Positions 2,836 to 57,748 of a DNA stretch of 61,732 nucleotides are shown in pieces. This DNA is from a virus. The DNA is taken from positions 1 to 61,732 of the IMG/VR virus record IMGVR_UViG_3300017527_000519; one strand, given 5' to 3'. Made by a program: the position numbers and the translations under genes. Under the pieces are notes generated by a model. The model saw only the letters and a program-made list of their open reading frames with translations, was not told the origin of the DNA and made no database searches. How positions within the stretch are numbered: position 1 is the stretch's first letter; every line of letters starts with the position of its first letter.

Positions 2836-2841
2836 TCGGTG

Positions 2842-3168
<327 letters not shown>

Positions 3169-17901: not shown

Positions 17902-18095
17902 TGCAAACCCGACCGGTCAGAATTGATATGCAGATGAGCGAGAGCCGTGGTCTGACGGAGCAGCAGGCCAGGTGCATCCTCAACGATTTAAAGAAGGTCT
18001 TGATTTGTCACGGGATATGGCATACGATATGGGAAACGAACGAGCCCGACCTGAAACGGGTTGATTTTAAGGGCTGTATTGTGGTGGGAAAATGA
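17901..18095 (+). CDS. Hypothetical small protein
   Basis: A 64-residue protein coupled to the previous gene by a TGATG overlap. It begins MQTRPVRIDMQMSESRGL and has a helix with C-x-L-N-D-L and a beta end (VDFKGCIVVGK). No family recognised. Its stop overlaps the following Tat-signal gene. Confidence 0.5.
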   Translation: MQTRPVRIDMQMSESRGLTEQQARCILNDLKKVLICHGIWHTIWETNEPDLKRVDFKGCIVVGK

Positions 18096-21999: not shown

Positions 22000-22099
22000 A
22001 ACAATTTTGGGGGATAGGGATACTCACCCATCCTGACCCGAAAAGCCGAACCCCTGGCGGCCTTCCCCCAACTCTTTACAGGGAATTAGGAGATGAACC

Positions 22100-43100: not shown

Positions 43101-45459
43101 GGGCGAACAGAAACACTCCTACCAGGAAACGCTTGAGCCCGTTACAGATCAGGACGTTATTGAAAACCGGAAATCGAAACGGAACGTCAAGCTTGCTGCA
43201 GAAACAACTATTGCCCGGATCGGATCGGAAATGGCCGAGGGGATTGATAAGTTTACCGGGGCCATATCGACCAGGTTGGGCAACATCAGTAAAAAAATAA
43301 AATCCAAGATACGGCGGCTGGACTTTGACATCAACAAAAAATCAGCCGCGGACGTTGAGGCAGTCATGCCTCTGCTTAAAAAAGCCCGGAAGAAGATGAC
43401 CCGGGACGATTACGCAGATTGGGACTATGTCCGTAAAAACTCAGCCATCGACAAGATAAATGAGCTAATCGACAAGTATGGCCTGCGAACCGAATACGAT
43501 AAGTACCGGGAGGTTTTAACCCGGTTGCGGCGTGAGGGTCTTGATGTGGGCCTTGAGATAGGGCTCATACAAGAATACGCGCCCAGGATATTAAAGGACC
43601 CCAAAGGTTTTCTGACCGCCATTGGCAAGGATCCTGATTGGGGGGTTTACAGCGAACAGATAAAGAAACGGGCTAAAGAGCTAGATATGGACATGGAGGA
43701 TATGGACATCGACCAGAAAGCGGCGATCGTATCCAACATGATCCTTGGCGGTTACTCAGGCCTGGGTGGTGTGCCAGCAACGAAAGAAAGAAAGCTCAAA
43801 AAAATACCTGCCTATCTGAATCGATTCTACATGGATTCGGACGGGGCCCTGATGCGGCATATCTACGGGATGCGGAAACTAATCGAGGGTAGAAAGTTTT
43901 TCGGTAAGATCCCGAAGAAGGTTGCCGAGATGCGGCGGCGGTTGCGCCTGGCCGAAACTCACATGCGGAAGCTTCAGGATGAAATGAAAACCGCGTCCAC
44001 CGAAGATAAAGCCAAGATGAAAAAACGGTGGAACAAACTGTTCGGGCTCAAAAAACAGTACCAGGCGTATCTTGATAAATACTCGATGCAACGTGATTAC
44101 CGGCAGAATATCGGTGCCTATGTGGTGGAACTGATCGAATCGGGCGAGATCCGGCCTCACCAAGAACGTGTTGTCAATGAGATCCTAAACGCGAGATTCC
44201 ACGAAAAAGGCGCCTACGGAGTCGTACAGGCGTACAAAAACCTTTCCTATATGGATACCATGGGTTCACCCATCAGCGCCTTGACACAGATAGGTGACAT
44301 GGCTTGGGCGGCCTTTGACGGTGGACTTATAAAGGCACTGAAACATGCCGGCCGATCGATACTTAAAAAATCACGGATTACCAAGGAGGATGTTGGGATA
44401 GAACGAATCGCCCAAGAGTTTGAGGACGCCGGATCCTTGGGCAAGGCGGTTTCGTTTGTGTTCAAATGGGTAGGCCTGGAAAAGATTGACTCGATCGGTA
44501 AAGAGGCTTTGCTGAACACGGCCTTTGAAAAATATAAAAAGCAGGCCAAGAGCAACCCGGACAAGTTGAAGTCCCAAATATCAGAAATCTTTGAAGATGA
44601 AACCGATCAGGTTATCGAAGACCTGAATAATGACGAAATTACCGACAACGTAAAGCTATTGGTTTACAGCAGGCTGCTTGACTTTCAACCGGTGGCCCTG
44701 TCCGAGATGCCTGAAAAATACCTGACGGCCGGTAATGGTCGCCTGTTTTACATGCTGAAAACATTCACGTTAAAGCAGTTTGATATTTATCGCAACGAGA
44801 TTTACAACAAATTCAAGAACGGCGATCGGGCAGACAAGGTTCAGGCCATAAAGAATCTTGTGAGGCTCACAATGTTTTTTGTGATTGCCAATGCTGGCGC
44901 CGACGAACTGAAGGATTGGGTGCTTGGCAGAAAGACCGACTTTGAGGACAGGGCGGTGGATAACATGCTACGCCTGGCCGGGGTATCGAAGTTTTACACA
45001 TGGAAAGCCCGGACGGAGGGTATCGGGTCCGCTACCCTGAAACTGATACTGCCGCCTGTGAAGTTCATCGATTCGCTGACCAAGGACATCACAAAGGCCG
45101 GGGATGAAAAGGGCCTGGAAACTGTTGGATCCATACCGCTGGTTGGTAAGTGGGCATACTGGCGCATGGGCCGCGGGGTAAGTAAGCGTGACGATCTTTG
45201 GGACATTCGGCTTAGAAAAGAAAAGCGCCGGCTGAACGATATTAAAAACCGGATGGAAGAAGCCCCCAACCAAAACGCCTTCAGGCAAAAATATAACCGG
45301 GAACTATCGAGACTCCGTAGGGCAAACGCGCTGCAGGGCAGGTTGAACAATTTTAAACAAAGAATCAACCGGTTAAAAAAGTCGGGTGGAAACAAGGCCG
45401 ATATTGACAGGCTTGCCAATAAAAGGATAGACTTCATTAAACAATTTCTTAAAGAATAA
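31147..45459 (+). CDS. Giant polyvalent virion protein: methylase, SNF2 helicase, zinc-protease motif
   Basis: A single 4,770-residue ORF from TTG 31147 (one base after the previous TAA). In order: ejection-like N-terminus with Gly-zipper hydrophobic stretches (about 150-205 and 270-360); disordered linkers; a small alpha domain (1059-1150); N6-adenine methylase with LEPAIGTGNF near 1362 and NPPF at 1429-1432; SF2/SNF2 helicase with GSGKT 2064-2068, DEAH 2225-2228, FFLTGTP and QREGRIIRQGN 2619-2629; metallopeptidase-like HELFH 3237-3241; a domain ending KGFYDKILPAAANKF near 3806; and a long helical C-terminus. This is the DarB-like plan of phage antirestriction proteins injected with DNA. No frameshift is seen. 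It takes 23% of the genome. Confidence 0.85.
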   Translation: MEPQYDWQTIQSSPEYWDLKPEQRALAKAEYWKRYVEPSEELKAYSPEKQELAKSRFLEPENYVPYERGFIGDVGSRLARGGVGLLESVGGAMRLADADPTQETGIVAKAGKSLADFAERTREGSDFLKPDISEATGAEGVVKRGFGGAVESAIPSLAPLAGTIAGAKAGGLLGTALAGPAGTLPGTIIGGGIGGIGTLFATFGLGQYQTTYDDTVSELTGKGVSPEEADIKARKNALVSATAEAGGELIGDLAAMTFFGVFGGQAAKQPLKLTIKQLLGAGKVGFAKAIAKSVPFEVGSEMGTAYFQAKAAQEAGVSTLPPGEAMAEAVLPAVFLSLMFGGAVHGMNHIEATNIYNGLNSKDPETRIRAAESISLRIKDKEERQQWANIATGYIDSGEQMPLDKPIIDFAIQKKEDDGGKTADIQSATSVDEALKAFEDATRPLAPSIAALTDPLYQDRLQRQGMIDREWGYGPESDIQRQAQFPAQTPEEQAAMEAAIVEQRNKGPREQALKAAGLLQTSGEIPSQGVDEAQQRREVGRAALKYPKPETPTGIAFPETGPTPDRVPPGMERTGAWTHDPVGDYWKGVAAKEGLLESAAEPERDLTEYWANVREKYGLQEETPEPPPVDTSDAEFKAWEQKAQRGLTEEEKAEFAAEIEKASEYKGIISGKGEDGKTVKPAPAGKNVKGIVVEEEFEPTSKDELIEKYRIYEREFDKKIKEHGSVSAAETHALASSGLLQEGVAAARHHLGLPNTMKPGTPLMEREKPTPPIKGPQTKKEKAAKATGVRRGEVGGKMREGEVVITSSGRKTSPFPKVSFGTNRKATLTVRRGEQWLIKEAAEEAKSRGDGFNQRSFEQDIGVKNVPQASKDSAEEYLFGEQPEIPKSILKPLIPKEPIKGPTSKKEKALKEYRDYVAALSTEQREAVSDLIEKEPKRPSGALFKLRKAVDAAKPKKAATEPKAPKTAIPVQDKDLKTIQEITDRIKSIEKQRDELEPPVEHHKFADFEKRLARFTKRHDFLWAKRAKLLSEQKSQKDTPGPETKEPKAPASKPKYGEKNKLFTKDSADAARELLRKKLGQVSTGLDPELVQAGIQLAGYHIEAGARSFGDYAAAMIADLGNAVKPYLRGWYEAVRYYPSFDAKGMTEAADINEKDLTDTKKVINNKEEKEVPDGTLREPTEEPPEGEQAGDVSGTVEGETPGSTLPGPGGRGRKGTSRNDGGRDAGLHGERDRGQEPADNVDYSITPDDALGAGGPKQKYKDNVAAIRVLKDLGPRKATPEEQAILVKYVGWGGLPQAFPKPNGDVSTGWQSEVDELQDVLSSEEYAAARKSTQDAHYTSATVVGKIYDAIKKFGFKQGKILEPAIGTGNFVGLMPASIRSRSSITGIELDPITATIADKLYPKQRIVNSGFESVSIAPGSFDLAIGNPPFGDKKLFDSQHPEFKSFSIHNFFFAKSLVGLRPNGLLSMVVSSSMMDKRGMDQRKWLAGRAELVGAIRLPNTAFKSNAGTEVTTDILFLRKLMDGEQIPDAKWIDLKPIEAEDGTSYLVNEYFADHPEMVLGVPVKNKLHPGEVVDGVYKGVAGFAPNEGVDLGEAIDAAVSFLPKDIYRAGQTVEEVQRPEILVSDVGFSQPYGYTVDDSGNAVRRLPDVNGEHVFEPVLYAGKPLAGKRLEKFKGLLKIRDAVRTLIRAEIADESKATLDRYRKKLNRVYDGFVKKHGYISVPATSKVLNQDPTDLPLLRSLEEKFDSGVSAAVARRTGEKPRGPRANKSSIFTVRTREPYREATTAANAKDGLAIVLREDGYADIDRIAELTGKTVDEAVKDLADIIFKNPVTEGYETSDIYLSGNVKKKLTQAKEARSRDAVYNDNVEALKKVLPKDVPVEKIHFEVGATWIPAQVYEDFSREVLERNATVQYIEDVGVWNIKVEKGISPFDSTRRSAAKIYTDLVTGSDVAVYEYIDKKRVFDREGTVDAQQKAKEINSAFQDWALNDTDRRKIISKNFNDKVNTTIDGKFDGSHMVFPGMGVITTGVKRDDQLMAHQKNVVWRLIQKGKGLVDHVVGSGKTFLSIATGIEMKRMGLLKKPMYVVPNHLVGQWAMDFQRLYPGAKVLVIDKTNFVKSKRQESMGRIATGEWDAVLVAHSSFGFVKMPYEYEKKFYADQIAQYEAAIVALSKSEGKKSRSVKQMENAKDKLKSKMQALANRPKDATVDFSELGVDALFVDEAHEFKNLFYATKRNRVAGLGNQKGSQKAFDMFVKTQFISETNNGRGVFFLTGTPVSNSISEMYTMMRYLEYDRMKEMGIRHFDQWANMFASAVSDWEVDPSGTRYRLQTKMDFVNVPGLMAFYKDFADVVSTDDLQKWAKERGQTWPIPDIKGGKPETVVAEKSDLQKNFMDWIVQRFDNMPSDPKEDNPLKATGEAMKGSLDIRLINPSLPDHPGSKVNLAVKNITATHKKWNARKGTQLVFCDLSVPSKAKGKHTAEIKALQQRIRKLETKLEAETDPEKLSSIEEEYTKLTDKFEKYSPAELMAASSKFSVYDDVKAKLISNGIPENEIAFIHDANTDLQKEDLFSRVRNGRVRVLIGSTSKMGAGMNVQNRLVALHHLDAPWRPSDLEQREGRIIRQGNKFFMEALKKGEKFAVDIFRYATKETLDTRRWQIIERKAKTIEQLRTGNLQWGEVISDTTGAAANAAEMKAASSGNPLILEEIQAKKDLETLEMEKRSDRSKRFGFKNTIEHRDKLEKSYKGDRKTIEKDIKFIENHPRDNTPEGWSVFINEKQYTAKGLISVPKKYEGKDKGEKKANAKAIKDATENNAKALKKAKADFEVGIKKELVPYLVRDLKANLADFTVSIRGIEFDVTRNHYSPTINFEPSIGVAQIFSRALWHSYGPSYDVRDLNSDGLFVEGLIIRLHNAIGSMVNDREVAEQNMKKNREEANREADIADRGLKKPPFDETKIQDARKKHTDILTQLQTESANEPTEVPDFSMWTDQVIERSASPTPTPGYYERAKGPSGEMEWLPAIGSKKIEIYPWVETFVRKKEIGTKNIWSVSEASTGSKFPGSFGTRKAAVSDAKRQLDNVGKDAFLDMIKSHIANIGESPWSTGKPKLSTKTDRRTHPKDPGGAEYTEQTRRSPLTPRLRRKDRRGDTITAKQVAAEFRKMGFGSNIAGDSVTVRTPTGSIAINVADSIVTDDGATISFSYGREAKAGEKVAGSYFNGAIDLKRNLADKFTLSHELFHHMKTAGLFNPAEEALLAKHGDEEAQARWIEGQLRNRKNTRGIAGKLVQKVRDFIDAIVNSFIRTERGILRDVEAGNILQRQGTPNANETQHSTIAGRWQSQMANFLSDKLPGSGSPKQILQTLDSWAKKGLIKSEELEWSGLREWLAEQDGKVGKQDILDFLAANHVQVKEVVKGKQSKYTIDDIENGELEQLEDGTWAVWQGEFAEQVGEGETEQAAIDDAVKTLGIAGMSVDDTKFSQYQEPGGENYKELLLTLPETKQKVEIPKIAETKQGYDDRWFVSDQNGDQISGDGHPTKEGAIEKAKAHIDRYTKEIAPQKSQYKSRHFDEPNVLAHVRFNERTGPDGERVLFIEEIQSDWHQEGRKKGYKGKGLPPGYRVSGSPNDLGRFVVYDSNGVIIPSPRGHATEQEAIAYAVKKIDVPPNAPFKKTWPMLAMKRMVRYAAENGFDQIAWTPGEVQADRYDFSKQIKEIFYRQHSDQSDKYEFKATAHSGETVIEEVGIPLSRIEEISGKEIAEKIKNGKGTDNSAALREWGEQTGVNLNVQAGQEGRVLSGLDLKVGGEGMKGFYDKILPAAANKFFGKKAWGGARVGTAKVAADDTKYTVEKYGEIYRIRQNGVLLHGPGFKSAEAAWSRVEKAQESDLKEVWSLPITPQMRSKALYEGMPMFSTKIIDTLTNEVGSSQLATDIYNFANGLVQSGIKSFKVFTARIYNKFKEVYKKIKPHLKSMWDTLNNQGGYIVLQEGEQKHSYQETLEPVTDQDVIENRKSKRNVKLAAETTIARIGSEMAEGIDKFTGAISTRLGNISKKIKSKIRRLDFDINKKSAADVEAVMPLLKKARKKMTRDDYADWDYVRKNSAIDKINELIDKYGLRTEYDKYREVLTRLRREGLDVGLEIGLIQEYAPRILKDPKGFLTAIGKDPDWGVYSEQIKKRAKELDMDMEDMDIDQKAAIVSNMILGGYSGLGGVPATKERKLKKIPAYLNRFYMDSDGALMRHIYGMRKLIEGRKFFGKIPKKVAEMRRRLRLAETHMRKLQDEMKTASTEDKAKMKKRWNKLFGLKKQYQAYLDKYSMQRDYRQNIGAYVVELIESGEIRPHQERVVNEILNARFHEKGAYGVVQAYKNLSYMDTMGSPISALTQIGDMAWAAFDGGLIKALKHAGRSILKKSRITKEDVGIERIAQEFEDAGSLGKAVSFVFKWVGLEKIDSIGKEALLNTAFEKYKKQAKSNPDKLKSQISEIFEDETDQVIEDLNNDEITDNVKLLVYSRLLDFQPVALSEMPEKYLTAGNGRLFYMLKTFTLKQFDIYRNEIYNKFKNGDRADKVQAIKNLVRLTMFFVIANAGADELKDWVLGRKTDFEDRAVDNMLRLAGVSKFYTWKARTEGIGSATLKLILPPVKFIDSLTKDITKAGDEKGLETVGSIPLVGKWAYWRMGRGVSKRDDLWDIRLRKEKRRLNDIKNRMEEAPNQNAFRQKYNRELSRLRRANALQGRLNNFKQRINRLKKSGGNKADIDRLANKRIDFIKQFLKE
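34667..34873 (+). CDS. Overprinted small protein inside the giant gene (68 aa)
   Basis: An ATG at 34667 with a near-perfect Shine-Dalgarno (AAGGAGGTGCCTG) opens a 68-codon frame inside the giant gene. The product (YANQLRNHLKENKQAMFLEL, then EKELHEMTAAGMPDFMANEI) has the look of the common small phage/mobile-element family that ends in a Met-Pro-x-x-x-A-x-E-x-V helix. In the giant frame the same bases encode a disordered Pro/Glu/Gly linker (residues about 1174-1243), exactly where overprinting would be tolerated. It may be a relic of formerly separate genes or a translated overlapping gene. Confidence 0.5.
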   Translation: MERYANQLRNHLKENKQAMFLELLKAKRLDQHCRDRGAEAEKELHEMTAAGMPDFMANEIVVKNLLTM

Positions 45460-45471
45460 AGGAGTTAAGCC

Positions 45472-45906
45472 ATGGCTGGTGCATTGACAACCCCAACGAG
45501 AACGACCCAGGACATCGGGCAAATAATGAAGGCTGAGATCAAGATCAGCCTTGCGTGTGTTTCCGACAGCGCAACTGGATTGGTGCCTGACCAGGCGTTG
45601 ACCGGGCTTGATGGATATGTGCTTACCCAAGTTCAACCGGTCCCGGATGCAGTTGCGCCCTTTACGAGTGCGTTTGAAATCAAGATCATCGATGCGAACA
45701 CGGCCAGGTTGTATCTCAGCGGTAGCGTTGCCGTAGACAGTTACGAGATTCTTGGAGGTCAGACCGGGTCAAACGATGGGAACTATCCTAGAATGGATGA
45801 AGCATCAACCTTTAAGATTGTGGATCCTGCCGACAGCGTATCCACATTAAGTGTCGGGAACTCAAAAGAAATCACGATTATCTTAAGGTTCGAAAGACAG
45901 GTCTAA
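45472..45906 (+). CDS. Hypothetical structural protein
   Basis: A 144-residue beta-rich protein with AAAGGAGTTAAGCC before ATG. It contains MKAEIKISLACVSDSATG, a loop, FEIKIIDANTARLYLSG, and a C-terminal strand ITIILRFERQV. Low charge and many strands suggest a virion or fibre-associated protein. First gene after the giant ORF. Confidence 0.55.
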   Translation: MAGALTTPTRTTQDIGQIMKAEIKISLACVSDSATGLVPDQALTGLDGYVLTQVQPVPDAVAPFTSAFEIKIIDANTARLYLSGSVAVDSYEILGGQTGSNDGNYPRMDEASTFKIVDPADSVSTLSVGNSKEITIILRFERQV

Positions 45907-45928
45907 CCCATTTTTGGCTGGTGACGCA

Positions 45929-46333
45929 ATGAAATCCTCCGAACATGATAGAGCGTTAAAAAAGTATAATGTCGGCAAGAAGTTTTTTGGTTCAGGCAAC
46001 CTGATGTTTGACGGGAACTTTCTTTTAACCAACCATGAACCGTTTATAGCCTCGGTTGAATATGCCAGGAATGCATTGAGTTTTTACACATACGTTCCAG
46101 AAAGAGATGATTGCGATAATTACGCTTTCATGCAGTATGGCCGGCAGCTTGAATACTTTTCCAGAAACGGTGGTGGTAATTTTTCTCGCACGTTCGGGCC
46201 ATGTTGGGGATACTGGAACAATAAAAACCATATGTGGGGGTATGGCCTAACCGACATGGGGTTTTTCCATGTGAACTATGGCCACATAGTCACGCCGGAT
46301 TCATATAAAGGAATTGGGAGCATTACATCATGA
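45929..46333 (+). CDS. Transglutaminase-like (DCDN-motif) phage protein
   Basis: A 134-residue protein. ATG 45929 is used; a TTG five codons earlier is possible. The central YVPERDDCDNYAFMQYG puts a Cys inside an acidic motif at the start of a helix, followed by NFSRTFGPCWGYWNN and a His (FHVNYGHIV), reminiscent of Cys-His transglutaminase-like or BTLCP proteins with D-C-D-D/N-x-A. Substrate unknown. Coupled to the next gene by ATGA. Confidence 0.5.
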   Translation: MKSSEHDRALKKYNVGKKFFGSGNLMFDGNFLLTNHEPFIASVEYARNALSFYTYVPERDDCDNYAFMQYGRQLEYFSRNGGGNFSRTFGPCWGYWNNKNHMWGYGLTDMGFFHVNYGHIVTPDSYKGIGSITS

Positions 46334-48303
46334 ATAAAATCATACCAATTTTATTGGGCCTTCTTTTGATGACAGGCTGCGCCGGTACAGGATTCAAAAC
46401 TAAGGCTCAGTCCGGTGTTGCAGATAAAACGACCGGTGATTCATTAACGGGCACCGAGTTTACCGCTGTGAAAAACACTGCCGACACAGCGGACGCGCTT
46501 GCTACCGTTAACGAATCAGCCATTTCAGGTATAAAGGATGGTTCTGTTGCTTTAACCACGCCTGCGCTTGGAACACCTGCGTCCGGGACTTTAACCAACG
46601 CAACCGGATTGCCAGTCTCAACGGGTGTAAGCGGTCTTGGTGCAAACGTTGCCACCGCTCTGGGTGTCGCCGTTGGTCAAACCGGGGCACCGGTTGTTTA
46701 TGATGGTGCGCTCGGAACCCCAACCGCTGGCACCCTCACGAACGCAGACGGCCTACCTATAGACGGTGGCACAACTGGAACATTGCCAATAGCCAGAGGC
46801 GGGACAGCGGCAGTAACAGCAGCAGCGGCAAGAGTGAGCCTTGGAGTTCCACCTGTATCGTCATGGGCAACAGCGACTTCATATGTAACCACCACTGACT
46901 CTCCAAACCGGATGGTTTATAATGATGGAATTCTTTACAAGTGTGTTGTCGCCCACACTTCTGGCGACACCGACGACGAGCCTGGAACCGGTGCGACTTG
47001 GCAAACATATTGGGAAGCTGGTGGCAGCGGCTTCGATGCCGAAAATCCTGGCGAGATTGGTGGAACGACTCCAGACGTGGTTAACGCTACTCAAGTTGTG
47101 ATTTCAAGGAGTGCCACCCTGGGGGATACGTGGGAATTTCGTGAAGGCTCAGAGAACGGTGACAATTATACGTCTATCGCTGGTGCGGCTGCACAGGAGT
47201 TTGACGTAGATTATGTTCTGATAAACAAAGAAGACGCTGACCTGCTTGGACCACCTTGGCCTCATCCGGCAAGAACTGCCGAATATAATGCACTTGGTCA
47301 ATATTCTTCCCATGACATTATTCCGTTTTCTGGTGCCGACACTGCTATAAACCTTGCTCCGGTGTCGAGTCTTTCAGCTAATTCGTGGGTTTGGGCGCAC
47401 TCGTTAGATGCGAATGATAAGTATGTTAATCCTAACGCAAGCGATTATATTTGCTACAACGCTGCGGGAACCTTTACTTGTCTCGATGATGGTGATTCAG
47501 TTCTTATTACTGATGTAGGCACTGCGATATTTTATAGACGGAACGATGGTGCCGGGTGGAACGTGTCTCACCCGAGTTTAACACTCGCTGATGCAGGGGC
47601 AGGCTGTAGCGGATGGAATTGTGGAATTGCCTCTGACGGCAATGTTCAGGCTTGGTATAAATTCGATGATGGAGCTTTGACAACCGATTCCAAGAATTCA
47701 TGGACCCTTACGTCGAATGGGACTCCCGTTGCTGACACAGTGGACTATATCCAAGGAGACGCTTCGGTGGACTTTGAGGGTGATGATAATGACTATTTTT
47801 CAATGGCCGGAACGACTGATGATTACGGGTGGGCAACCAGCAGCGACCTTGCAATTACTGGATGGTTCAAAGTCGAATCGTCAAACGTGAACAGAAACAT
47901 ATTTTACAAACAGGATGTTATCAGAATTGCGTTTGGCGCGGGAAATAAATTTGTACTTTCTGTTGATGATGACGATGACGGCAGCTGGGACACATACCAG
48001 CATGGATCAACGCTACAGGACGGTAGATGGTATTTCTTTGCGGTCACCATAAACGGAGGTGGTGCCGGGGCGTACACTATTCATTTGTGGGATTCAGTGG
48101 CGGAAGCAAGGGTTGGTACGGATATTTCGGATGTGTTTGACGATACAGATTCGCCTTACAATTTTGATGAAACGGACACTGTTTATATATCCAGTACAGG
48201 CACGAATGAATTTGACGGCAGGGTGGACGACATTGTTATATGGGATTCAACTCTATCGGAGACTATAATTGACCAGATTCGGCAGGGGACGTATGGACAG
48301 TAA
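46330..48303 (+). CDS. Tail-fibre-like lipoprotein with LamG-type domain
   Basis: A 657-residue protein that starts with a lipoprotein signal (IIPILLGLLLMTGC, lipobox Met-Thr-Gly-Cys) and continues with classic tail-fibre repeats (ALGTPASGTLTNATGLPVS and GTLTNADGLPIDGG, then TLPIARGGTAA). A short carbohydrate-binding-like piece (MVYNDGILYKCVVAHTSG, yW end) follows, and residues 440-650 form a LamG/concanavalin-like fold (YFSMAGTTDDYGW, ITGWFKVESSN, RVDDIVIWDSTLS). Fibre sequence behind a lipid-anchor signal is unexpected. It may be shown on the host surface or be anchored in the envelope. Coupled to both neighbours. Confidence 0.7.
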   Translation: MNKIIPILLGLLLMTGCAGTGFKTKAQSGVADKTTGDSLTGTEFTAVKNTADTADALATVNESAISGIKDGSVALTTPALGTPASGTLTNATGLPVSTGVSGLGANVATALGVAVGQTGAPVVYDGALGTPTAGTLTNADGLPIDGGTTGTLPIARGGTAAVTAAAARVSLGVPPVSSWATATSYVTTTDSPNRMVYNDGILYKCVVAHTSGDTDDEPGTGATWQTYWEAGGSGFDAENPGEIGGTTPDVVNATQVVISRSATLGDTWEFREGSENGDNYTSIAGAAAQEFDVDYVLINKEDADLLGPPWPHPARTAEYNALGQYSSHDIIPFSGADTAINLAPVSSLSANSWVWAHSLDANDKYVNPNASDYICYNAAGTFTCLDDGDSVLITDVGTAIFYRRNDGAGWNVSHPSLTLADAGAGCSGWNCGIASDGNVQAWYKFDDGALTTDSKNSWTLTSNGTPVADTVDYIQGDASVDFEGDDNDYFSMAGTTDDYGWATSSDLAITGWFKVESSNVNRNIFYKQDVIRIAFGAGNKFVLSVDDDDDGSWDTYQHGSTLQDGRWYFFAVTINGGGAGAYTIHLWDSVAEARVGTDISDVFDDTDSPYNFDETDTVYISSTGTNEFDGRVDDIVIWDSTLSETIIDQIRQGTYGQ

Positions 48304-50173
48304 AAAGCTTTTTACTTTTATATTCTTACTTATGTTCGCTACGCCTGCATCAGCGACCACGTTTTACATCGGATCTCACGCGGCAGCGGAACATCCGGGT
48401 GTGGGATATGCGACTTACGACGCCTTTAAATCTACCGCATCACCGTCAACCAGTGATGATCTGTATTTTGAAAACGGTGAGACTTTCACCTTTGGTGGTG
48501 CAAACCATAATATCGTCATAAATTGGCAAGGAACTTCTGGTGACAGGGCGATTATCGGCGGTTGGTCGTCTGATGCTGAGGCGAGCACCACAAAACCGAT
48601 TCTTGATTTTGAATGGACGTGGCCGGGTGATGGTTTAGGCGGTGGAATAAACGACTGCAAAACAAGCGGAGGATGGGATAAGGGTAAATGCTGGACCCCG
48701 GCGATTAAAGTTATGGATAGAGATTATGTAACAATCGAAAATTTAGACATTCGAAATGTCGTGGGTGTGGGGCCGGTCCTCGATGATGGTGATTATCCAA
48801 TCATGGATGGTGTAAAGGTTGATCGAACATGGGGGAAAAGCGGAAGTGTTAGCGACGTGCCCACGTCCGCTACAATACAAAACTGCGAGTTTTCCAGGTC
48901 TGCGCAACTTTTGAAAGAATTTATTTGCTCAAGAAAGGGCGGTTTCGCGATAACTCGGACAAACGGGGCGGTTTTTACAAAAAACTATATCCACGATCAG
49001 CATAACGAGGGCGTTGACATTATTAAGAATAGCCAAAACTTTGAAGCAAGTTTTAACCGGTTTGATAGTGTGCGCGGACCGGCCTTGGTGGTGTCCAGAT
49101 CGAGAACAGGCGTGGTTAAATTCAATGTTTTTACGCACACAAAAGATTCGATTGTTCCCCTCAAGGGTGCTTGTCTGACTATAGATCAGGAAGACGACAC
49201 GAAGTATCCTGTAGCTTGGGTAGTCAAAGACATCCTGGTCTATGGAAACATTTTTTACGGGATACGCGGGAACGCCATAGATATTGCTAACAATAATATA
49301 TATGTGGATAACGGCCACTTTTCAAACATTGACGTAATAAATAACACTGTAGTCGGTGCGAGAACTCCGTTAAGGCTTCATGACACCTTTGCTTGCGATT
49401 GGTCTGGCGGCGAAGTATCGGGGAACATTTTCTATACTGCAGGTACAACTTTTATCGATGGAAAACCAGACAAGGTTATCGCGGCAGGCATGACCTTCTA
49501 TGGTAATTTTTACGCGGCGCTGATGTATTCCGGTCAACTCCCGCCTGCTTCGGCGCGGCATGCATTGGATAGATATGGTGAACCCCCGTTTAATTCTACC
49601 TTGGGAGACGGAAGACAGTTTAATTATGAAGAAGCAATGGTTTCTCACGCAGCACTTCCAGCCGGGTCAAGGGCAATAGGGTCAGGCATAAACAATAGCA
49701 GCCATAACTCTTCTTTGTTTAATCCCGCGTCAACCGACCCACAAACGGCAACATTATCAACGGTTGGTGCTACAGCGGATTGGGATTTCGGAGCGGTTGA
49801 CTACGGGGGAACCTCTACGCCACCCAATGAGACAGATTGCAGCAACGGTATTGATGATGACGGTGATACGTTTACTGATTGCGACGATTCTGATTGTGTT
49901 GACGATCCAGCTTGTGAAGTAGCACTGGAAACCAATTGTTTCAACGGGTTCGATGACGACGGTAACGGAGATACAGATTGTGCAGACGCGAACTGCCAGG
50001 CAACCGAGGATGCTTGTGTGGAAAGTGAAGAATCGCCATACTGCACAGACGGGATTGACAATGATGGGGACGACTTAATTGATTGCTATTACGGAAGGTC
50101 TGACCCTGGATGTGCATGTGGTGAGCCTGAATATCACACACAACCAAAAATATTAGGTGGAATAAGCAAATAG
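48293..50173 (+). CDS. Secreted parallel beta-helix protein with Ca-binding-like repeats
   Basis: A 626-residue protein; ATG 48293 overlaps the previous gene. Sec signal (LFTFIFLLMFATPASA, cleavage after ASA). Residues 18-480 are a right-handed beta-helix of the pectate-lyase/NosD type (TIENLDIRNV, FTKNYIHDQHNEGVDII, NASFNRFDSVR-like turns). The C-terminus (513-600) has three Cys/Asp repeats of the kind C-x-N-G-x-D-D-D-x-D-x-x-x-D-C, likely calcium-binding. Together these suggest a secreted sugar-binding or depolymerising protein. No catalytic residues could be assigned. Confidence 0.7.
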   Translation: MDSKKLFTFIFLLMFATPASATTFYIGSHAAAEHPGVGYATYDAFKSTASPSTSDDLYFENGETFTFGGANHNIVINWQGTSGDRAIIGGWSSDAEASTTKPILDFEWTWPGDGLGGGINDCKTSGGWDKGKCWTPAIKVMDRDYVTIENLDIRNVVGVGPVLDDGDYPIMDGVKVDRTWGKSGSVSDVPTSATIQNCEFSRSAQLLKEFICSRKGGFAITRTNGAVFTKNYIHDQHNEGVDIIKNSQNFEASFNRFDSVRGPALVVSRSRTGVVKFNVFTHTKDSIVPLKGACLTIDQEDDTKYPVAWVVKDILVYGNIFYGIRGNAIDIANNNIYVDNGHFSNIDVINNTVVGARTPLRLHDTFACDWSGGEVSGNIFYTAGTTFIDGKPDKVIAAGMTFYGNFYAALMYSGQLPPASARHALDRYGEPPFNSTLGDGRQFNYEEAMVSHAALPAGSRAIGSGINNSSHNSSLFNPASTDPQTATLSTVGATADWDFGAVDYGGTSTPPNETDCSNGIDDDGDTFTDCDDSDCVDDPACEVALETNCFNGFDDDGNGDTDCADANCQATEDACVESEESPYCTDGIDNDGDDLIDCYYGRSDPGCACGEPEYHTQPKILGGISK

Positions 50174-50183
50174 GAGAAACACA

Positions 50184-50471
50184 ATGGGAGAAATTAAAAC
50201 CACGCCGCAGTATATTGTTACTGCAGAGCCGACGACAAACAAAATTGAAAAGGTTACTTTCACAATTAACTTCGGTTCTCCATCAACAGTAACAGTAAAT
50301 TTTAATCTTGTTTCAATAGGCGGAACAGTCTTGAAACGTCATTCGTTCGACATTGATGGGGCTGAATTTACCGCGCTGTTTGATGGTATAGGATCTACTC
50401 TGAACAGCCGGATAGAATCAAATATTTGGTCATATGTTCAGGATAATTATGATACCCAAGCAACACCTTAA
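50184..50471 (+). CDS. Small beta-rich protein
   Basis: A 95-residue protein with AGGAGAAACACA before ATG. It is beta-rich (KVTFTINFGSPSTVTVNFNL) and has no signal peptide, the only such gene between 46330 and 56968. The end (YVQDNYDTQATP) contributes ACACCTTAA, which is also the left end of the duplicated cassette. Function unknown; possible fibre chaperone or cap. Confidence 0.55.
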   Translation: MGEIKTTPQYIVTAEPTTNKIEKVTFTINFGSPSTVTVNFNLVSIGGTVLKRHSFDIDGAEFTALFDGIGSTLNSRIESNIWSYVQDNYDTQATP

Positions 50472-50778
50472 AAGGAACTAAAATGAAAAAAGTAGTAGGA
50501 TTAATTGTATTCATGGCGGCAGCATTTTTGTTCGTCGGGTGTTTCGAGCGTGAAGAGACGGCTAGTCCGCCAATCGCACCGGCAAAACGGCTGACTGATG
50601 CGGAAGTAGCTGCGGGGACATCGACCGCATATGGGTTGATCACCCCTAAGATTTATGCAGACAACCTTGGCATTGGTGCTGGTGAGGCCACCACCTACGA
50701 GGTACTGAATACAAATTCTGACGTAGATACTGATTTAACGGATGGTGCTACGGCAAGCACTGTCCCGGCTGCTGCGGC
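50463..50778. repeat. Lipoprotein-anchor cassette, copy 1
   Basis: A 316-bp segment from ACACC before the gene through the first ~98 codons of the lipoprotein at 50483. It recurs at 53657-53972 with scattered, mostly synonymous changes, at a constant offset of 3,194 bases. Similarity ends abruptly at the Ala-rich end of the shared module, after which the proteins differ. Confidence 0.85.
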
Positions 50779-53065
50779 TACTAAGACGTATGCTGATTTG
50801 AAAGAAACCATCGTTACAGAAGGCTCTTTGGGGGATTCTGTTATTGTATCTGCTGATATTAAAGATGGAGTAATTCTTGTTGCGGATATGGCGGCAGCAG
50901 CGGTGGTTACTGAGTCTGATACTATCGCGGGGAATGATAACGATACGACCGTACCGACCAGCGCGGCTGTGAAGGATTATGCTGATTTGAAATTGGATGG
51001 ATATACCGTATGTTCAAATCTATCGGAGTTTACCACCGCAGAAACCGCCGGTGAAGGAATTTGGGTGGATGGGACCATCACTATGACGGGTAACATTGAA
51101 GTCAATGTGCCTGTGTACGTTTCCCCTGATGATGGTTTGATTGTTACGACAGGGCATACATTAACTTTTGGTGATGGTGGATCGATTGATGCCGGTAGAT
51201 ATACTATATTCACAACAGCCTCGGATGGAACTGAAATCGTTGGATTAAAAGAGGCAAAAGTTGAATGGTTTGGTGCGAGCCCAGGCGCTTCGGCAGCAAA
51301 CAACAGCACATATTTCGAAACTGCTGATAATGTTTGCGAACAAGGAGTTGTAACGGTTGGGGTCGGCACGTTCGCAATGAACGGGTGGGGCATTGAGTCT
51401 GTGTTTTGGCGCGGCGCTGGGGGCCATGGGACAATATTAGATATAGCAAGTGGTAGTATTCAAATTGACAACCAAGCCGCAGGATCGTCCTCAAACCCGG
51501 GAGAACTGGCATATTTTAGTATTACGGGTGCAACCACTTCTGCGTTGATTTCTGTCCAAACCGAAAGCGCATTATTTAAAATTCATAATAATTTAATTTA
51601 TAGCGGAGGCGGCGACGGAATCCAGCTTGCCACTGGCGGCGCTTCTGTACATTGCACGGGTATTGAAATATATGACAATAAAATTGCTTTAAATGCAGAT
51701 GACGGTATTTATGGTACTGCAACATCAACAGCTCAAATTAATACTATATTTATCCATCACAATGATATCGGCAGTAATACAGGTGATGGTATACAGCTTT
51801 TTGGTGCGACCAGTATCGTGGTTGAAAACAACCAGATCCAAAACAACGGGGTGTATGGAGTAAGTACCCTGGCGGTTGGTGACTCAAGCCAGAATTTTAG
51901 CAATTTGCAGATTGTAAAAAATCATTTCGAAGGGAACGATACAGGCAGTATTTATATGTGGGGTGAAAATGACGATTCACCCGTTAATGTTAGACATATC
52001 ATAGATTTTGTAATAGATGGAAATTTCTTTTACACAAGCGACACAGTAGATGCATACATTACCTTTATTGCAACGGGCACAGGTGATGCCGCAGGATACA
52101 ATGCGTTCAGAAATGGTTCTATCAAAAACAATAGATTTACTTCTAGCGGAACTGTTACTGACTATATAGATTTCGGAGACACATGTAATAGAGATGTTTT
52201 TGTGTTGTTACAATACTCAGATTTTGACGGGGCGGAGCTTAACGGAGACCATCGCTATTACGAAGTCAATCTAGATGAATATACTAATTTTGGAACGGAG
52301 AGAACTCCGACATTTATTTCCAGTTATTTATGCGGCAATTCCGGGGCACCATCTGAGACTCCATTATGGATTGGGCAGGAGTATTACGATTTCACAAACG
52401 ACGTTTTGTATCGGGCTGTTGAAACGGATTCTGCTGCGGATTGGAAAACCAGCGTAATTGTTGGTGAAGATATCGCTACAACAGGATCTATCAGTGGAAC
52501 AGCCGTGCCTGTTTCGGTGGTAAATTGTACGGGAGCGCATGATACGGGTGACGATGCATTGATACTCGTGGATTCAGGAGAATCATTGACGGTAGATGCT
52601 TATATCGGCATGACATTATATAACATCGACGATGGCTCAAGTTGCACAGTTGCTGATAATGACGGAACAAGCATAACGTGCGAAGATTATTCAGTGGGTG
52701 TGGCGAGTGGACTTACCGGCGGAACAGATGATAATTGGACTACAACCGATGTCTGGATGGTCGGCCCTGGACCGGAACAATCAAACCAAGTTTTCTATAT
52801 TAATGCTGCTACTACAATCGCGCATCCCGCGACAGTCGGATTCGTTGCGAGTTACTTTTCATCTGGTGCAACTGTTGTAAAGATAGATCCAGCATCGGAC
52901 TCTATGACAATCAACTTTTCTGACGATGGCGTCTACACAGACCCAACTGCCGGTGTAACTGTTGATGGCGATGGAACTGCGGGAGACCACATCACTATCC
53001 ATAATCAGTCGGTAACTGAAGCACACTCTTGGGGTGTTAATGGCTCATGGGCAGCAGGGAGTTAA
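50483..53065 (+). CDS. Lipoprotein with beta-helix, fibre-like
   Basis: An 860-residue protein: lipoprotein signal (VVGLIVFMAAAFLFVGC, lipobox Phe-Val-Gly-Cys), a shared 98-residue anchor module (LTDAEVAAGTSTAYGLIT, typical fibre sequence), fibre repeats, and a long right-handed beta-helix (about 200-600; IYDNKIALNADDGIYG, VENNQIQNNGVYG). The C-terminal part is beta-sandwich-like. AAAAGGAACTAAA precedes ATG 50483. Receptor-binding or sugar-binding is likely; the lipid anchor suggests surface exposure on the infected cell. Confidence 0.65.
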   Translation: MKKVVGLIVFMAAAFLFVGCFEREETASPPIAPAKRLTDAEVAAGTSTAYGLITPKIYADNLGIGAGEATTYEVLNTNSDVDTDLTDGATASTVPAAAATKTYADLKETIVTEGSLGDSVIVSADIKDGVILVADMAAAAVVTESDTIAGNDNDTTVPTSAAVKDYADLKLDGYTVCSNLSEFTTAETAGEGIWVDGTITMTGNIEVNVPVYVSPDDGLIVTTGHTLTFGDGGSIDAGRYTIFTTASDGTEIVGLKEAKVEWFGASPGASAANNSTYFETADNVCEQGVVTVGVGTFAMNGWGIESVFWRGAGGHGTILDIASGSIQIDNQAAGSSSNPGELAYFSITGATTSALISVQTESALFKIHNNLIYSGGGDGIQLATGGASVHCTGIEIYDNKIALNADDGIYGTATSTAQINTIFIHHNDIGSNTGDGIQLFGATSIVVENNQIQNNGVYGVSTLAVGDSSQNFSNLQIVKNHFEGNDTGSIYMWGENDDSPVNVRHIIDFVIDGNFFYTSDTVDAYITFIATGTGDAAGYNAFRNGSIKNNRFTSSGTVTDYIDFGDTCNRDVFVLLQYSDFDGAELNGDHRYYEVNLDEYTNFGTERTPTFISSYLCGNSGAPSETPLWIGQEYYDFTNDVLYRAVETDSAADWKTSVIVGEDIATTGSISGTAVPVSVVNCTGAHDTGDDALILVDSGESLTVDAYIGMTLYNIDDGSSCTVADNDGTSITCEDYSVGVASGLTGGTDDNWTTTDVWMVGPGPEQSNQVFYINAATTIAHPATVGFVASYFSSGATVVKIDPASDSMTINFSDDGVYTDPTAGVTVDGDGTAGDHITIHNQSVTEAHSWGVNGSWAAGS

Positions 53066-53067
53066 CT

Positions 53068-53556
53068 ATGCGTAAATTTTATTTTGGCGCGGTATTTATC
53101 CTTAGTTTGATACTGTTGGGAACACTGGCTCATGCGTTTGGTTTGATTGGACTGGGTTCTTGGAGAGAGATTACTTATCTCGGCACCAATATGGACTTTA
53201 CAAATTGGTCGGATGACGACCCGGTCGGGTGGACAGTTTACGGTGAAAGTGGGTCTGACCCGATGGTAACAGAGGTAAGCGGCGCGGCGAGAATGTATAC
53301 GTCGAGTGCTTATGTTGATATCACACAAGCTATGATAATGGACGGACTTAGTTGTCACATTACACTTGATTATACTCATGTATCTGGAAGTTTTGTTATT
53401 GGTAGTACTGATGGTGGATCAGATATTAAGGTGATAGACTCTTCTGACGATGACGGCCCATTTGATTTTACGGGGGCTGGCGATGTCTTATGTATCAAAC
53501 GAAATACTCTCCCGGCCGATGGGACTTTTGATAATATACTAGTGTGGTGCGATTAG
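53068..53556 (+). CDS. Secreted CBM-like protein
   Basis: A 162-residue protein with a Sec signal (RKFYFGAVFILSLILLGT, cleavage near AHA). The mature part has NMDFTNWSDDDPVGWTVYG and a beta-sandwich pattern of the carbohydrate-binding-module kind (jelly-roll), ending FDNILVWCD. The start overlaps the end of the previous gene. It resembles the protein at 54663 in architecture. Role: sugar binding, inferred only from pattern. Confidence 0.6.
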   Translation: MRKFYFGAVFILSLILLGTLAHAFGLIGLGSWREITYLGTNMDFTNWSDDDPVGWTVYGESGSDPMVTEVSGAARMYTSSAYVDITQAMIMDGLSCHITLDYTHVSGSFVIGSTDGGSDIKVIDSSDDDGPFDFTGAGDVLCIKRNTLPADGTFDNILVWCD

Positions 53557-53611
53557 TAGCGAATCTGGAGACAGTGGGGAAATAGCGGCAAAAAACTAAC
53601 GAGGAAATACC

Positions 53612-53665
53612 ATGCCAGACCGAATGGACCCATTGGACAGGATGTTGACCGAAGAGACACCTTAA
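53612..53665 (+). pseudogene. Truncated 17-codon copy of the 56978 gene start
   Basis: ATG 53612 with GAGGAAATACC upstream opens MPDRMDPLDRMLTEETP-stop, the same first 17 residues as the gene at 56978. The DNA matches until ACACC, where it joins the copied lipoprotein-anchor cassette. So an upstream copy of the later gene was broken by the cassette. A clear recombination scar, unlikely to be functional. Confidence 0.7.
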
Positions 53666-53972
53666 AAGGAACTAAAATGAAAAAAGTAGTAGGATTAATT
53701 GTATTCATGGCGGCAGCATTTTTATTCGTCGGGTGTTTCGAGCGTGAAGAGACGGCTAGTCCGCCAACCGCACCAGCAAAACGGTTGACCAATGCGGAAG
53801 TAGCTGCGGGGACATCGACCGAGTACGGGTTGATCACCTCTAAGATTTATAAAGACAACCTTGGCATTGGTGCTGGTGAGGCCACCACCTACGAGGTGCT
53901 GAATACAAACTCTGACGTGGACACTGACCTAACGGATGGTGCTACGGCAAGTACCGTTCCGGCTGCTGCGGC
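53657..53972. repeat. Lipoprotein-anchor cassette, copy 2
   Basis: The second copy of the 316-bp cassette (50463-50778). It carries the ribosome-binding site, signal peptide and anchor module of the lipoprotein at 53677. Its left boundary lies exactly at the end of the truncated MPDRMDP copy. Confidence 0.85.
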
Positions 53973-54666
53973 AGTAACGGGTTTGATTGACACCACTCAA
54001 AAGTTAGAGGATGCAAGTAGTGCCGGTGCTTACGCAAGCGATATTTTGGACTGTACTGATCAAGCCGCTCTTGTTACGCTTGTTTCTGGTGTGAGTCCCA
54101 CAAATGTCACACCAGTCGACACCGGTAACGAGAACACGACTTTTTATCTTTTGATGACTGATGGTAGAACAGATACGCAAGCCGTCGAAACTGATCTAGA
54201 ATTTCCATACAACCCTTCCACCGACACCTTAACAGTGAAGAACATTGCTATAGCGTCTGGCGGTGGGATAACTAATGTGGGTGTTATATCTCCTGATGGC
54301 GTCCTTCCCAGGGTGCTTGACGGCGCAGAACTTGGTGACACCGCAACACCACACGTTATGACAGCGGCAGAAGTAAGCGGAAATATCATCACAAATAATG
54401 GTGCAAGTGCAGATGCAGTGTTTACATTTCCGGCTCTGTCGACGATAGAGGGCTCGACCGGGATTTTTAATGTTGAGGAAGCTTATCAAGTCGATCTTGA
54501 ACCAAACGGTTCAGAGCAGTTTTATTTAAACGGAGCGCAGATGGGAACAGGAGAGCATATCCAAAATACGGCAGATACAATAGGGGATATGATTAGTTGG
54601 ATATGCACGGAAACCGCGTGCTTTTTTAAATCAGGTAACCCAAATTGGGTAGAGGCTACACCATGA
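53677..54666 (+). CDS. Fibre-like lipoprotein, short form
   Basis: A 329-residue protein with the same lipoprotein signal and 98-residue anchor module as 50483, followed by a different fibre-type body (NTTFYLLMTDGRTDTQAVE, YNPSTDTLTVKNIAIASGG) and a C-terminal beta region (LEPNGSEQFYLNGAQMG). The body resembles tail-fibre shaft and tip sequence. Domain swapping on a constant exported anchor is implied. Coupled to the next gene by ATGA. Confidence 0.65.
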   Translation: MKKVVGLIVFMAAAFLFVGCFEREETASPPTAPAKRLTNAEVAAGTSTEYGLITSKIYKDNLGIGAGEATTYEVLNTNSDVDTDLTDGATASTVPAAAAVTGLIDTTQKLEDASSAGAYASDILDCTDQAALVTLVSGVSPTNVTPVDTGNENTTFYLLMTDGRTDTQAVETDLEFPYNPSTDTLTVKNIAIASGGGITNVGVISPDGVLPRVLDGAELGDTATPHVMTAAEVSGNIITNNGASADAVFTFPALSTIEGSTGIFNVEEAYQVDLEPNGSEQFYLNGAQMGTGEHIQNTADTIGDMISWICTETACFFKSGNPNWVEATP

Positions 54667-55139
54667 AAAAGTTACTATGCTGTTTAATTATTTTATTGTG
54701 CATGGGTGTTTCTGCTTGGGGATTAAATCTCTCAACTATCAATGAGATGGGCAGTAAGGGCTACGGCCCAGAAATATTGGCAGATGGTACTTGTGATTCT
54801 GATAGCTGGTCAACCACTGAGGTTGGGTGGGCTTATAACGCAACGGATGATGACTATGACGTTGATGGCTCTCAAGAGGGTAATGCATATATATATAAAG
54901 ATACCACTGGCACTGATGACAATACTCCATATTTAGTTGTATTTGAAATAAAAGCTATTTCGGCGGGAAGCTGTTACGTATATTTTGGTGGTGTTATTGA
55001 TACTGGAACCGCAAGATCAACTGCTGACACCTTCGAAGAAGAAATATTAACAACAACAGGCGACAATACTTTTGGTTTAAAGTGTACATCTACATTTGTA
55101 GGAACCGTAGATAATTTTTCTATAAAACGGGTTAATTAA
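54663..55139 (+). CDS. Secreted CBM-like protein
   Basis: A 158-residue protein starting at 54663. Sec signal (KKLLCCLIILLCMGVSAWG). The mature part is beta-rich with DSDSWSTTEVGWAYNATDDD and YVYFGGVIDTGTA, again like a carbohydrate-binding jelly-roll, ending VDNFSIKRVN. The same order (signal, F/W-rich first strand, D-N-F/I end) as 53068. Coupled to the following gene (TAATGAG). Confidence 0.6.
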   Translation: MKKLLCCLIILLCMGVSAWGLNLSTINEMGSKGYGPEILADGTCDSDSWSTTEVGWAYNATDDDYDVDGSQEGNAYIYKDTTGTDDNTPYLVVFEIKAISAGSCYVYFGGVIDTGTARSTADTFEEEILTTTGDNTFGLKCTSTFVGTVDNFSIKRVN

Positions 55140-56968
55140 TGAGACAATTTGTCTTTTTTTTAATAGGGTTTTTACTTTGTTGCTCTTCTGCTTTTGCAGT
55201 AGATACTACTTACTACGTTACTAAGGCGGGTAACGACGACACCGGAGATGGTACGGTGGAAACTCCATGGTTAACTATTCAACACGCTATAAACCAAGTT
55301 GAAGCGAACGAAGCCGAAGACACCAGTTTTCTTGTAACGGTTGGTGCTGGCACATATACAGAGCAAATCACACTTTCTGATTTTGACGCCAGCGGATCAT
55401 CTCTCTCTGTGGATGGCGGTGCTGTTGCGACCATTGACGGTGGGGATAGATTGTCAGGATGGGTAACTGCCCCTGAAATTGGGGCAGGAGTTTATAAGTA
55501 TGTTGACGGTGGAACAGCCTTGGGCTATGCGCCTGAGAATATGGCAACAGACAATAAAGCGACATTAGATATCACCACCTCCGCTATGGATGCTGGATCT
55601 GGGGACGCCATACTTGCCCTTGCAGAAGGCAATGCTGGTTGGGATGGGGTGGAAGTGAGATGGGGGTATAACTCTGTAAACGACAATATTTATGTTCGCT
55701 TCGAAGATGGCAGCGACCCAGATGATAAGGATTGTGCGTTTTCCCCTGATTCTGGCGGTGCTTTTTTTCTTGATGATTCAAGTAATGTAACAATTACGGG
55801 TTTCACAATCCGAAACAACTATTCGGCAATTAGGATGACATATAATTGTGACAACAATATCATAGAAGACAACACTCTGGAAGGTGGATTGATAACAGTT
55901 AATATCAAGGGTTATTCGACCTCCATTCCAGATGGTAATATAATTAGAAACAATGACATAACCCTTGGTTTTATTTACACCTCTGCTGGATACCAAATGT
56001 ACAAATCCGCAACTGATGAAAATATTTGGGACACTGTTAAGACTGGCAATTCTTCAAGTGACCGAATTGGGATTTATATTTATCGTGGTGGAGATGGGAA
56101 CAAAATATACAGTAATATTATTGCTAAACATTTTGACGGTATTGTTATTTCTGATGATACAGCAGACCGAAACGATAATACCGAAATTTATGAGAACACA
56201 CTGCATCATAATATGGATAGTTCCATCGAATTAAATACGTATGATGGCGAGGGGATAAAGATATATGACAATTCTCTCCATGAATCCACTACTTTAATAC
56301 GAATTAAAAGATTAGACACGGGGCCGGTTTATATCTATAATAATGATATTACAGTCGAAACTGCGGTTGGTTATGATTCTCAGACTCTGGCGAGTGGGAT
56401 CACTTTCTCTCTTACTAGTACACCGGAAACTACCGGTACACTTTACGTTTACCACAATTCAATAGCCACGGCAGCCGCCGCAATTAATTATGATGTAAAC
56501 GCATCAAGTACGGCAAAATTTCCAAACTTCTGGTTTATTAATAATATTTTTGGTAGTACTAATATTCTCCGACGTATAGAAACAATGGGGGAACCTTTAT
56601 CTCACACCTGTTATAATTATGCTGCGGGAGCGGAGCAATATGGAGATGATTATTGGCCCTTAAGGCATGATAATACTGGTGATCTTCAGAATATTGACGG
56701 GACACTAACTGATTTATGGACCTCTTTAGTTAATGTAAACGTAGAAATCCCGATTGATCCAACCGATCTTCTTGAAGCTGGCGTCGATGTTTCTGATACA
56801 TTTTCATGTGATGGTGACAGTAAAAGCGCGTTGCCAGGATTTACTAGTAACTACTTTGATCGGTCTGCACCAGATATAGGTTCGGTTCAATGGTCGGATG
56901 CAAATTCAATACAAGATGGCAACGGCACCATACTATACGGAACCGGAACAATAAGTACGTTAGACTAA
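55139..56968 (+). CDS. Secreted right-handed beta-helix protein
   Basis: A 609-residue protein with a Sec signal (FVFFLIGFLLCCSSAFA). It opens DTTYYVTKAGNDDTGDG, PWLTIQHAINQVE, the DUF1565/pectin-lyase-type start, then beta-helix turns (IIEDNTLEGGLITVNI, IYSNIIAKHFDGIVI, EIYENTLHHNMDSSI). Its final 100 residues hold a W-x-x-L segment and PDIGSVQW. It resembles secreted polysaccharide-binding or lyase proteins and phage tailspikes. No active site can be assigned. Confidence 0.65.
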   Translation: MRQFVFFLIGFLLCCSSAFAVDTTYYVTKAGNDDTGDGTVETPWLTIQHAINQVEANEAEDTSFLVTVGAGTYTEQITLSDFDASGSSLSVDGGAVATIDGGDRLSGWVTAPEIGAGVYKYVDGGTALGYAPENMATDNKATLDITTSAMDAGSGDAILALAEGNAGWDGVEVRWGYNSVNDNIYVRFEDGSDPDDKDCAFSPDSGGAFFLDDSSNVTITGFTIRNNYSAIRMTYNCDNNIIEDNTLEGGLITVNIKGYSTSIPDGNIIRNNDITLGFIYTSAGYQMYKSATDENIWDTVKTGNSSSDRIGIYIYRGGDGNKIYSNIIAKHFDGIVISDDTADRNDNTEIYENTLHHNMDSSIELNTYDGEGIKIYDNSLHESTTLIRIKRLDTGPVYIYNNDITVETAVGYDSQTLASGITFSLTSTPETTGTLYVYHNSIATAAAAINYDVNASSTAKFPNFWFINNIFGSTNILRRIETMGEPLSHTCYNYAAGAEQYGDDYWPLRHDNTGDLQNIDGTLTDLWTSLVNVNVEIPIDPTDLLEAGVDVSDTFSCDGDSKSALPGFTSNYFDRSAPDIGSVQWSDANSIQDGNGTILYGTGTISTLD

Positions 56969-57316: not shown

Positions 57317-57748
57317 ATGTATCTTACAGAACAACTTATTCGGCATGAAGGTTTGCGGTTACACCCATACAAATGTCCTGCGGGATATTGGAGTATAGGA
57401 GTGGGCCGGAATCTTGAAGGAAAAGGTATTACTCATCAAGAAGCAATGTATATGATGATGCATGACATAGCTGACGCCAAGATTGGCGTTAAACAGATTT
57501 TAAGCAATTATCATATTGAAGATTATAAAATAAATTTGCCAAGAAGGGATGCATTGATCAATGTAGCGTACAACATCGGCCAGTCGTCCTTGATGGGGTT
57601 CAGAAAAATGTTTTCTGCCATATATGCAGAAGATTGGGATAAGGCCGCTGTTCAGCTACTTGATAGTAAATACGCAACAGAGGTTGGGGGAAGGGCTGTT
57701 GAATTGTCTAACCAGTTGAGAACAGGAGCATATCAAAGAAATGAATGA
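57317..57748 (+). CDS. Endolysin, GH24 (T4-type) lysozyme
   Basis: A 143-residue lysozyme without a signal peptide, so it depends on a holin. The catalytic pattern EGLRLHPYKCPAGYWSIGVG places E11, C20 and S26 at the T4-lysozyme positions E11, D20, T26. Cys at the second position occurs in many phage lysozymes; Ser for Thr is conservative. The C-terminal helices (RRDALINVAYNIGQSSLMGF) are typical. Cleaves peptidoglycan MurNAc-GlcNAc bonds. Overlaps the holin gene. Confidence 0.85.
   Translation: MYLTEQLIRHEGLRLHPYKCPAGYWSIGVGRNLEGKGITHQEAMYMMMHDIADAKIGVKQILSNYHIEDYKINLPRRDALINVAYNIGQSSLMGFRKMFSAIYAEDWDKAAVQLLDSKYATEVGGRAVELSNQLRTGAYQRNE

Follow-up and report, generated by a model that had tools for sequence, protein, structure and literature searches.

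The window analysed here is the whole of IMG/VR virus record IMGVR_UViG_3300017527_000519 (61,732 nucleotides, nt). Its first 99 nt recur at its end, and because of this terminal repeat we regard the window as a complete phage genome; PHROGs matches identify terminase, portal-type connector, major head, tail, and endolysin genes. Between the gene for a giant multidomain protein and the lysis genes lies an array of eight consecutive genes (46330-56968), named below by their first coordinates. Signal peptides were called at the starts of seven of them (46330, 48293, 50483, 53068, 53677, 54663, and 55139), leaving 50184 as the only one without. Fibre assembly in tailed phages is regarded as cytoplasmic, and these N-termini suggest that the array encodes an unusual set of exported fibre-like phage proteins. 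Genes were called with a simple longest-open-reading-frame caller rather than a trained gene finder.

Three of the array genes encode lipoprotein fibres of 329, 657, and 860 amino acids (aa). One of these, 46330..48303 (+), combines a signal and the lipobox MTGC with fibre repeats, a weak CBM5/12 match, and a LamG tip (Pfam). In 50483..53065 (+) the signal and lipobox FVGC lead into a fibre stalk and a PF13229 beta-helix, and 53677..54666 (+) has the same signal-stalk module followed by another distal domain. Two further genes encode Sec-secreted beta-helix proteins matching PF13229: 48293..50173 (+), with Cys-rich C-x-DG-DDDGD-x-DC repeats, and 55139..56968 (+), which also matches PF05048 and a PHROG tail protein and ends in the tag NGTILYGTGTI. 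Cys makes up 1.24% of exported fibres versus 0.75% of signal-less fibres (P 4e-4). The Sec-secreted small proteins 53068..53556 (+) and 54663..55139 (+) each have a signal and a Shine-Dalgarno (SD) sequence; they appear beta-sandwich-like by eye only and have no Pfam match. The small protein 50184..50471 (+) is 43% identical to 31630-31932 of the relative G029, which occupies the same position and is likewise signal-less.

In four phages, otherwise unlike in sequence, the final gene of the array ends in a short C-terminal tag of the form G[NT]GT-x3-GTG[TN] (55139-56968 in the window, L224:16674-18257, L239:18754-20130, and G030 21185-22525). Among 4056 distinct proteins the pattern had one further match, in L015, which we attribute to chance.

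Signal peptides across the array

The signals are of lipoprotein type in 46330 (..LLMTGC) and in 50483 and 53677 (both ..FLFVGC), and of signal peptidase I type in 48293 (ATPASA/TT), 53068 (LAHA/FG), 54663 (GVSA/WG), and 55139 (SAFA/VD). With a rule-based scorer, signals were called in 7 of 8 genes in this region versus 1 of the 49 other genes of at least 90 aa (Fisher P 2e-7). When seven array-bearing genomes were pooled, with array regions chosen after inspection, signals were found in 32 of 36 array genes versus 14 of 383 genes elsewhere. The first scorer threshold missed two signals in G007 and a lower one was then used; enrichment was computed at three thresholds.

SD sequences (GGAG, AAGGA, GAGG) are present at the signal-bearing starts except those of 48293 and 55139, both of which overlap the preceding stop. 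It could be argued that the starts were mis-called or that the hydrophobic N-termini are non-functional, as the scorer is rule-based and makes a few random calls per genome. Start-site error was rejected on the SD sequence or overlap at each signal start, with no better SD at any internal start downstream of a signal, and chance hydrophobicity was rejected on the 7/8 versus 1/49 enrichment. Signal character is moreover kept between divergent orthologues and recurs in many phages (see below), so that an artefact is largely refuted and, in our judgement, highly improbable. On the strength of these N-terminal sequences, the array proteins are very probably exported.

An earlier note on this DNA had listed the same seven genes as signal-bearing, with lipoboxes in three and with 50184 as the exception. 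Signal scoring bears out the list, places the lipoboxes in 46330, 50483, and 53677, and confirms the exception; the count of "six of seven" given there is corrected to 7 of 8. The note had named better downstream starts as a finding that would undo its proposal, and a search for them found none. The fibre repeats that it saw in 46330, 50483, and 53677 are plain in the translations, and the beta-helices that it saw in 48293, 50483, and 55139 correspond to PF13229 in all three.

Recurrence, relatives, and modular structure

Relatives were gathered via the coat protein and via the C-terminus of the giant protein, and the same locus was then compared. At least eight related uncultured phages contain from one to six signal-bearing fibre-like genes, placed after the giant virion-type gene and ahead of lysis. 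These directly follow the giant gene in G003 (4), G007 (3), G015 (at least 1, at the contig end), L224/G032 (3), L232/G030 (6), L234/G029 (6), L235 (3), L236 (1, at the contig end), and L239/G031 (5). Fibre-like genes without signals are found at the locus in G001, G002, G013, L225, L226, L229, and L230. The giant genes of G007 and G013 are alike while the signal trait at the array locus differs, a contrast suggesting that the trait was gained or lost more than once.

Collinear homologues in G029 correspond to 46330, 48293, 50184 (again signal-less), and the N-terminus common to 50483 and 53677 (n = 4). The G029 orthologue of 46330 has its own lipobox, and that of 48293 has a signal and the same Cys-rich C-x-DG-D-DGD repeats. 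Two of the three G029 signal peptides are strongly diverged from those of the window (5/16 and 7/20 identities) and the third shares 10/17, and despite this divergence all three are still of the same signal type. The coat of G029 is P22-type (phrog_283), and the window coat found no match when queried against G029-G032. The array is therefore common to phages with different heads.

The 4770-aa multidomain protein upstream of the array (31147..45459, +) has the same position in relatives. It is followed by two small proteins without signals that are not expected to be exported. The one heading the array, 45472..45906 (+), is 36% identical to G030 32332-32796 in the same position, and its slot holds a similar-sized gene in L232, L234, and L239. 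The other, 45914..46333 (+), has homologues in G031 and L234, of which L234:12653 has a weak match, under the curated cut-off, to PF18022, an agglutinin C-terminal (cysteine-protease-like) domain (E 9e-5). A DCDNYAF motif is kept in 45914-46333.

IMG/VR contains coat-protein relatives of the window phage at 56-80% identity, while the portal of the nearest cultured relatives is only about 30% identical. Three coat homologues sit in metagenome-assembled genomes of Desulfobacula, Burkholderiales, and Spirochaeta. Such placements, along with the adhesin-like exported content, would fit lysogenic conversion, in which a temperate phage carries exported adhesins that serve its host. We consider this very unlikely, since the array lies inside the late structural and lysis region rather than in an independently transcribed moron, and the contigs that hold the coat homologues, in metagenome-assembled genomes, are possibly free phage.

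A 300-nt repeat (50454-50753 and 53648-53947, 93% identity) contains the ribosome site, lipoprotein signal, and stalk start of both 50483 and 53677, and beyond this shared block the tips of the two proteins differ. The N-terminal region of 46330 is not shared with either by BLAST. Just upstream of 53677 there is a recombination scar (53602..53662, +), a truncated copy of the 5' end of the downstream lysis-region gene 56978, including its ribosome-binding site and first codons (84% identity over 61 nt). The shared block, the differing tips, and the scar together indicate growth of the array by recombination, with the lipid anchor as its constant end. The lipobox thus lies within the constant, recombining N-terminal module, the place held by the tail anchor in a virion fibre.

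The earlier note had also proposed structure prediction as a check. An AlphaFold 2 model of the distal domain of 53677 (predicted local distance difference test, pLDDT, 72.5) matches PDB 9ny6_C, the Pa223 capsid spike (E 1e-5), and the tailspike 24qj (E 3.5e-4), with TM-scores of about 0.4-0.5, and the tip is accordingly predicted to fold like phage fibres or spikes. Folding the beta-helix of 55139 from its sequence alone gave an unusable model (pLDDT 36). Recent capture of host exoproteins was rejected as an origin of the lipoprotein fibres because of their fibre repeats and spike-like folding, whereas the Cys-repeat beta-helix 48293 may have come from a host.

Exported members, including those of relatives, carry LamG, CBM5/12, Calx-beta, Ig-like, and beta-helix domains, and L232 has a weak PL14 match. 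Shortly 3' of the array lies an endolysin gene (57317..57748, +; phrog_7, E 5e-21), and near the genome end, on the opposite strand, is an M12B reprolysin-like zinc metalloprotease (60210..61544, -) with a Sec signal and a strong SD. The beta-helix, CBM, LamG, and PL14 matches, the exported protease, and the position of the array before the lysis genes would agree with a set of secreted tools for the surrounding matrix or capsule, in which beta-helix and lectin-like proteins and the metalloprotease digest or grip polymers, freeing progeny or aiding lysis, and the lipoproteins are only scaffolds. This is quite unlikely in our view, as the window array has no strong match to a catalytic family and much of it is fibre stalk and lipid anchor.

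Signals on virion-type proteins and a possible surface role

The window encodes a separate canonical tail-fibre-type protein without a signal (26454..27497, +; phrog_4900 tail protein). It has homologues in G001, G003, G011, G023, and L087, and its N-terminal domain is conserved in relatives. The array proteins lack this domain, which, along with the existence of a separate signal-less fibre, favours a non-virion role for the array.

Signals nevertheless precede some virion-type proteins in this phage group. L089:12610-13962, in the canonical position following the tail nozzle, has a signal directly before an intact conserved tail-fibre N-terminal domain, orthologous to that of 26454 (41% identity over 184 aa); the gene is cut off by the end of the contig. 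A phrog_399 structural protein of G030 also begins with a signal; its family match starts at residue 37, and an SD is present at the signal start. To judge from these sequences, fusion of signals to virion-type proteins occurs in the group.

Signal-like N-termini in the head/connector region of G030 (locus L309) were seen at 47084-47776, 48634-49881, and 43830-47084 (-), in the phrog_399 structural protein, a 415-aa protein adjoining the coat, and, less clearly, the tail nozzle. In the window, two adjacent head-region genes have Tat-like RRxFLK starts (18092-18445, +, RRTFLK; 18427-18738, +, RRMFLK). The mature domain of 18092 is shared with a head-module family present in most relatives, and the protein therefore looks like a structural-protein paralogue that was given a Tat signal. 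The lysis region also encodes a lipoprotein (58430).

The L089 and G030 signals would fit a role in completing the virion, in which the exported fibres, some of them Cys-rich, would fold in the periplasm and join virions at or after lysis, the signals being a virion-protein feature of the group. The exact placement of the L089 signal before a domain orthologous to that of 26454, the SD at the signal start of the G030 protein, the Cys-rich array members, and the fact that the array occupies the site of signal-less fibres in other relatives are all consistent with this. Its lipoprotein members would however be anchored in a membrane, no tail-anchor domain can be recognised in the array proteins of the window, and the array is common to phages with unrelated coats. 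Connector proteins, moreover, are needed in the cytoplasm, on the DNA-filled head. We regard virion completion as possible though unlikely. In a broader form, virion-type proteins such as the L089 tail fibre, the G030 structural protein, and the fibre arrays would be routed through host export, so that part of the particle would mature beyond the cytoplasm, to be added to virions at lysis. This we hold tentatively, as rather unlikely; tailed-phage assembly of this kind is undescribed as far as the literature searched shows.

A surface-directed, non-virion role is the simplest reading because the lipobox sits at the tail-anchor position and the signal-less fibre 26454 is encoded separately. The single explanation that we favour, at about even odds when taken as a whole, is that this cassette among the late genes supplies lipid-anchored and secreted fibre, lectin, and beta-helix proteins that act late in infection, at the surface of the infected cell or in its surroundings, with an inferred masking or matrix-modifying role. 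The host Sec and lipoprotein machinery would export the proteins, and an acylated cysteine would anchor the three lipoprotein fibres in the envelope, the lipid anchor replacing the virion tail-anchor domain. The anchored fibres could then hold their carbohydrate-binding or beta-helical tips outward, while the Sec-only small and beta-helix proteins would be released or kept at the surface. On the dying cell and its debris, these late-made proteins would coat or alter the glycans, so that neither sister phages nor fresh progeny stick there, and/or the surrounding matrix would be loosened at lysis.

Several points weigh against such a surface role. Signal calling relied on our own rule-based scorer. 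The signals on virion-type proteins of L089 and G030 are unexplained by surface masking alone. No homology links the exported tips to the tip of the virion fibre, so they need not bind its receptor, nor does the sequence fix whether the lipoproteins face inward or outward at the outer membrane. The earlier note had proposed a phage-encoded surface coat on the infected cell; what stands of this is the probable export of fibre-like proteins and its recurrence in relatives, with masking, adhesion, and matrix digestion as candidate roles there.

Little or nothing was found with a distal-domain profile against 395 genomes of the Desulfobacula phylum, with the portal or 50483 as single queries against viral_contigs, with 50483 and 55139 against INPHARED, or in a PDB search by sequence. 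INPHARED returned only repeat matches for 46330 and weak cyanophage matches for 53677, and promoter and terminator scans performed no better than chance. Elsewhere in the window, two long arrays of the 6-nt unit CCCGTA/CCCGTC are found at 2564-3144; their flanks are similar, and they are open in several frames on both strands.

Comparison with known systems

No description of phage arrays encoding exported fibres turned up in the open-access literature searched. That such a cassette recurs and is shared horizontally would mean that some phages display fibres on the dying host or mature fibres outside the cytoplasm. Either outcome, if true, would change the view of host-surface remodelling, superinfection exclusion, and fibre evolution, and Bdellovibrio, with its own exported fibres, would offer a parallel. 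Pairs of relatives whose genes at this locus do or do not bear signals make the cassette a clear set of test cases.

The array resembles canonical podophage tail fibres and tailspikes in its fibre repeats, beta-helices, and spike-like distal fold (9ny6_C). Canonical virion fibres, however, have a tail-anchor domain and no signal, a description that 26454 itself fits, whereas the array proteins have a signal or lipobox instead.

The mosaic adhesive trimer (MAT) fibres of Bdellovibrio bacteriovorus have a conserved beta-rich domain of about 130 aa right after the signal, and 13 of 21 end in an S74 domain (PMC10769870). They share with the window array the presence of a signal peptide on a phage-fibre-like protein, but they are encoded by a predatory bacterium and the array by a phage. 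Pfam scans of the array and its relatives found no S74 family, unlike in MAT fibres.

Superinfection-exclusion lipoproteins such as T5 Llp and T1 Cor are also phage-encoded and have a lipobox, as do 46330, 50483, and 53677. Llp, encoded beside the receptor-binding gene, keeps phages from adsorbing to infected cells and to the fragments left by lysis; this very small periplasmic protein targets the receptor FhuA, and proteins of its kind are described as expressed early (PMC9586334). These very small single-domain proteins differ from the window lipoproteins in size and in timing, since the latter belong to a late-region array of fibre, lectin, and beta-helix proteins. By the features tested, the array is not a member of the MAT fibres or of Llp. 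The two are nevertheless the closest analogues known, and display of the array proteins would work like MAT fibres and, in purpose, perhaps like T5 Llp.

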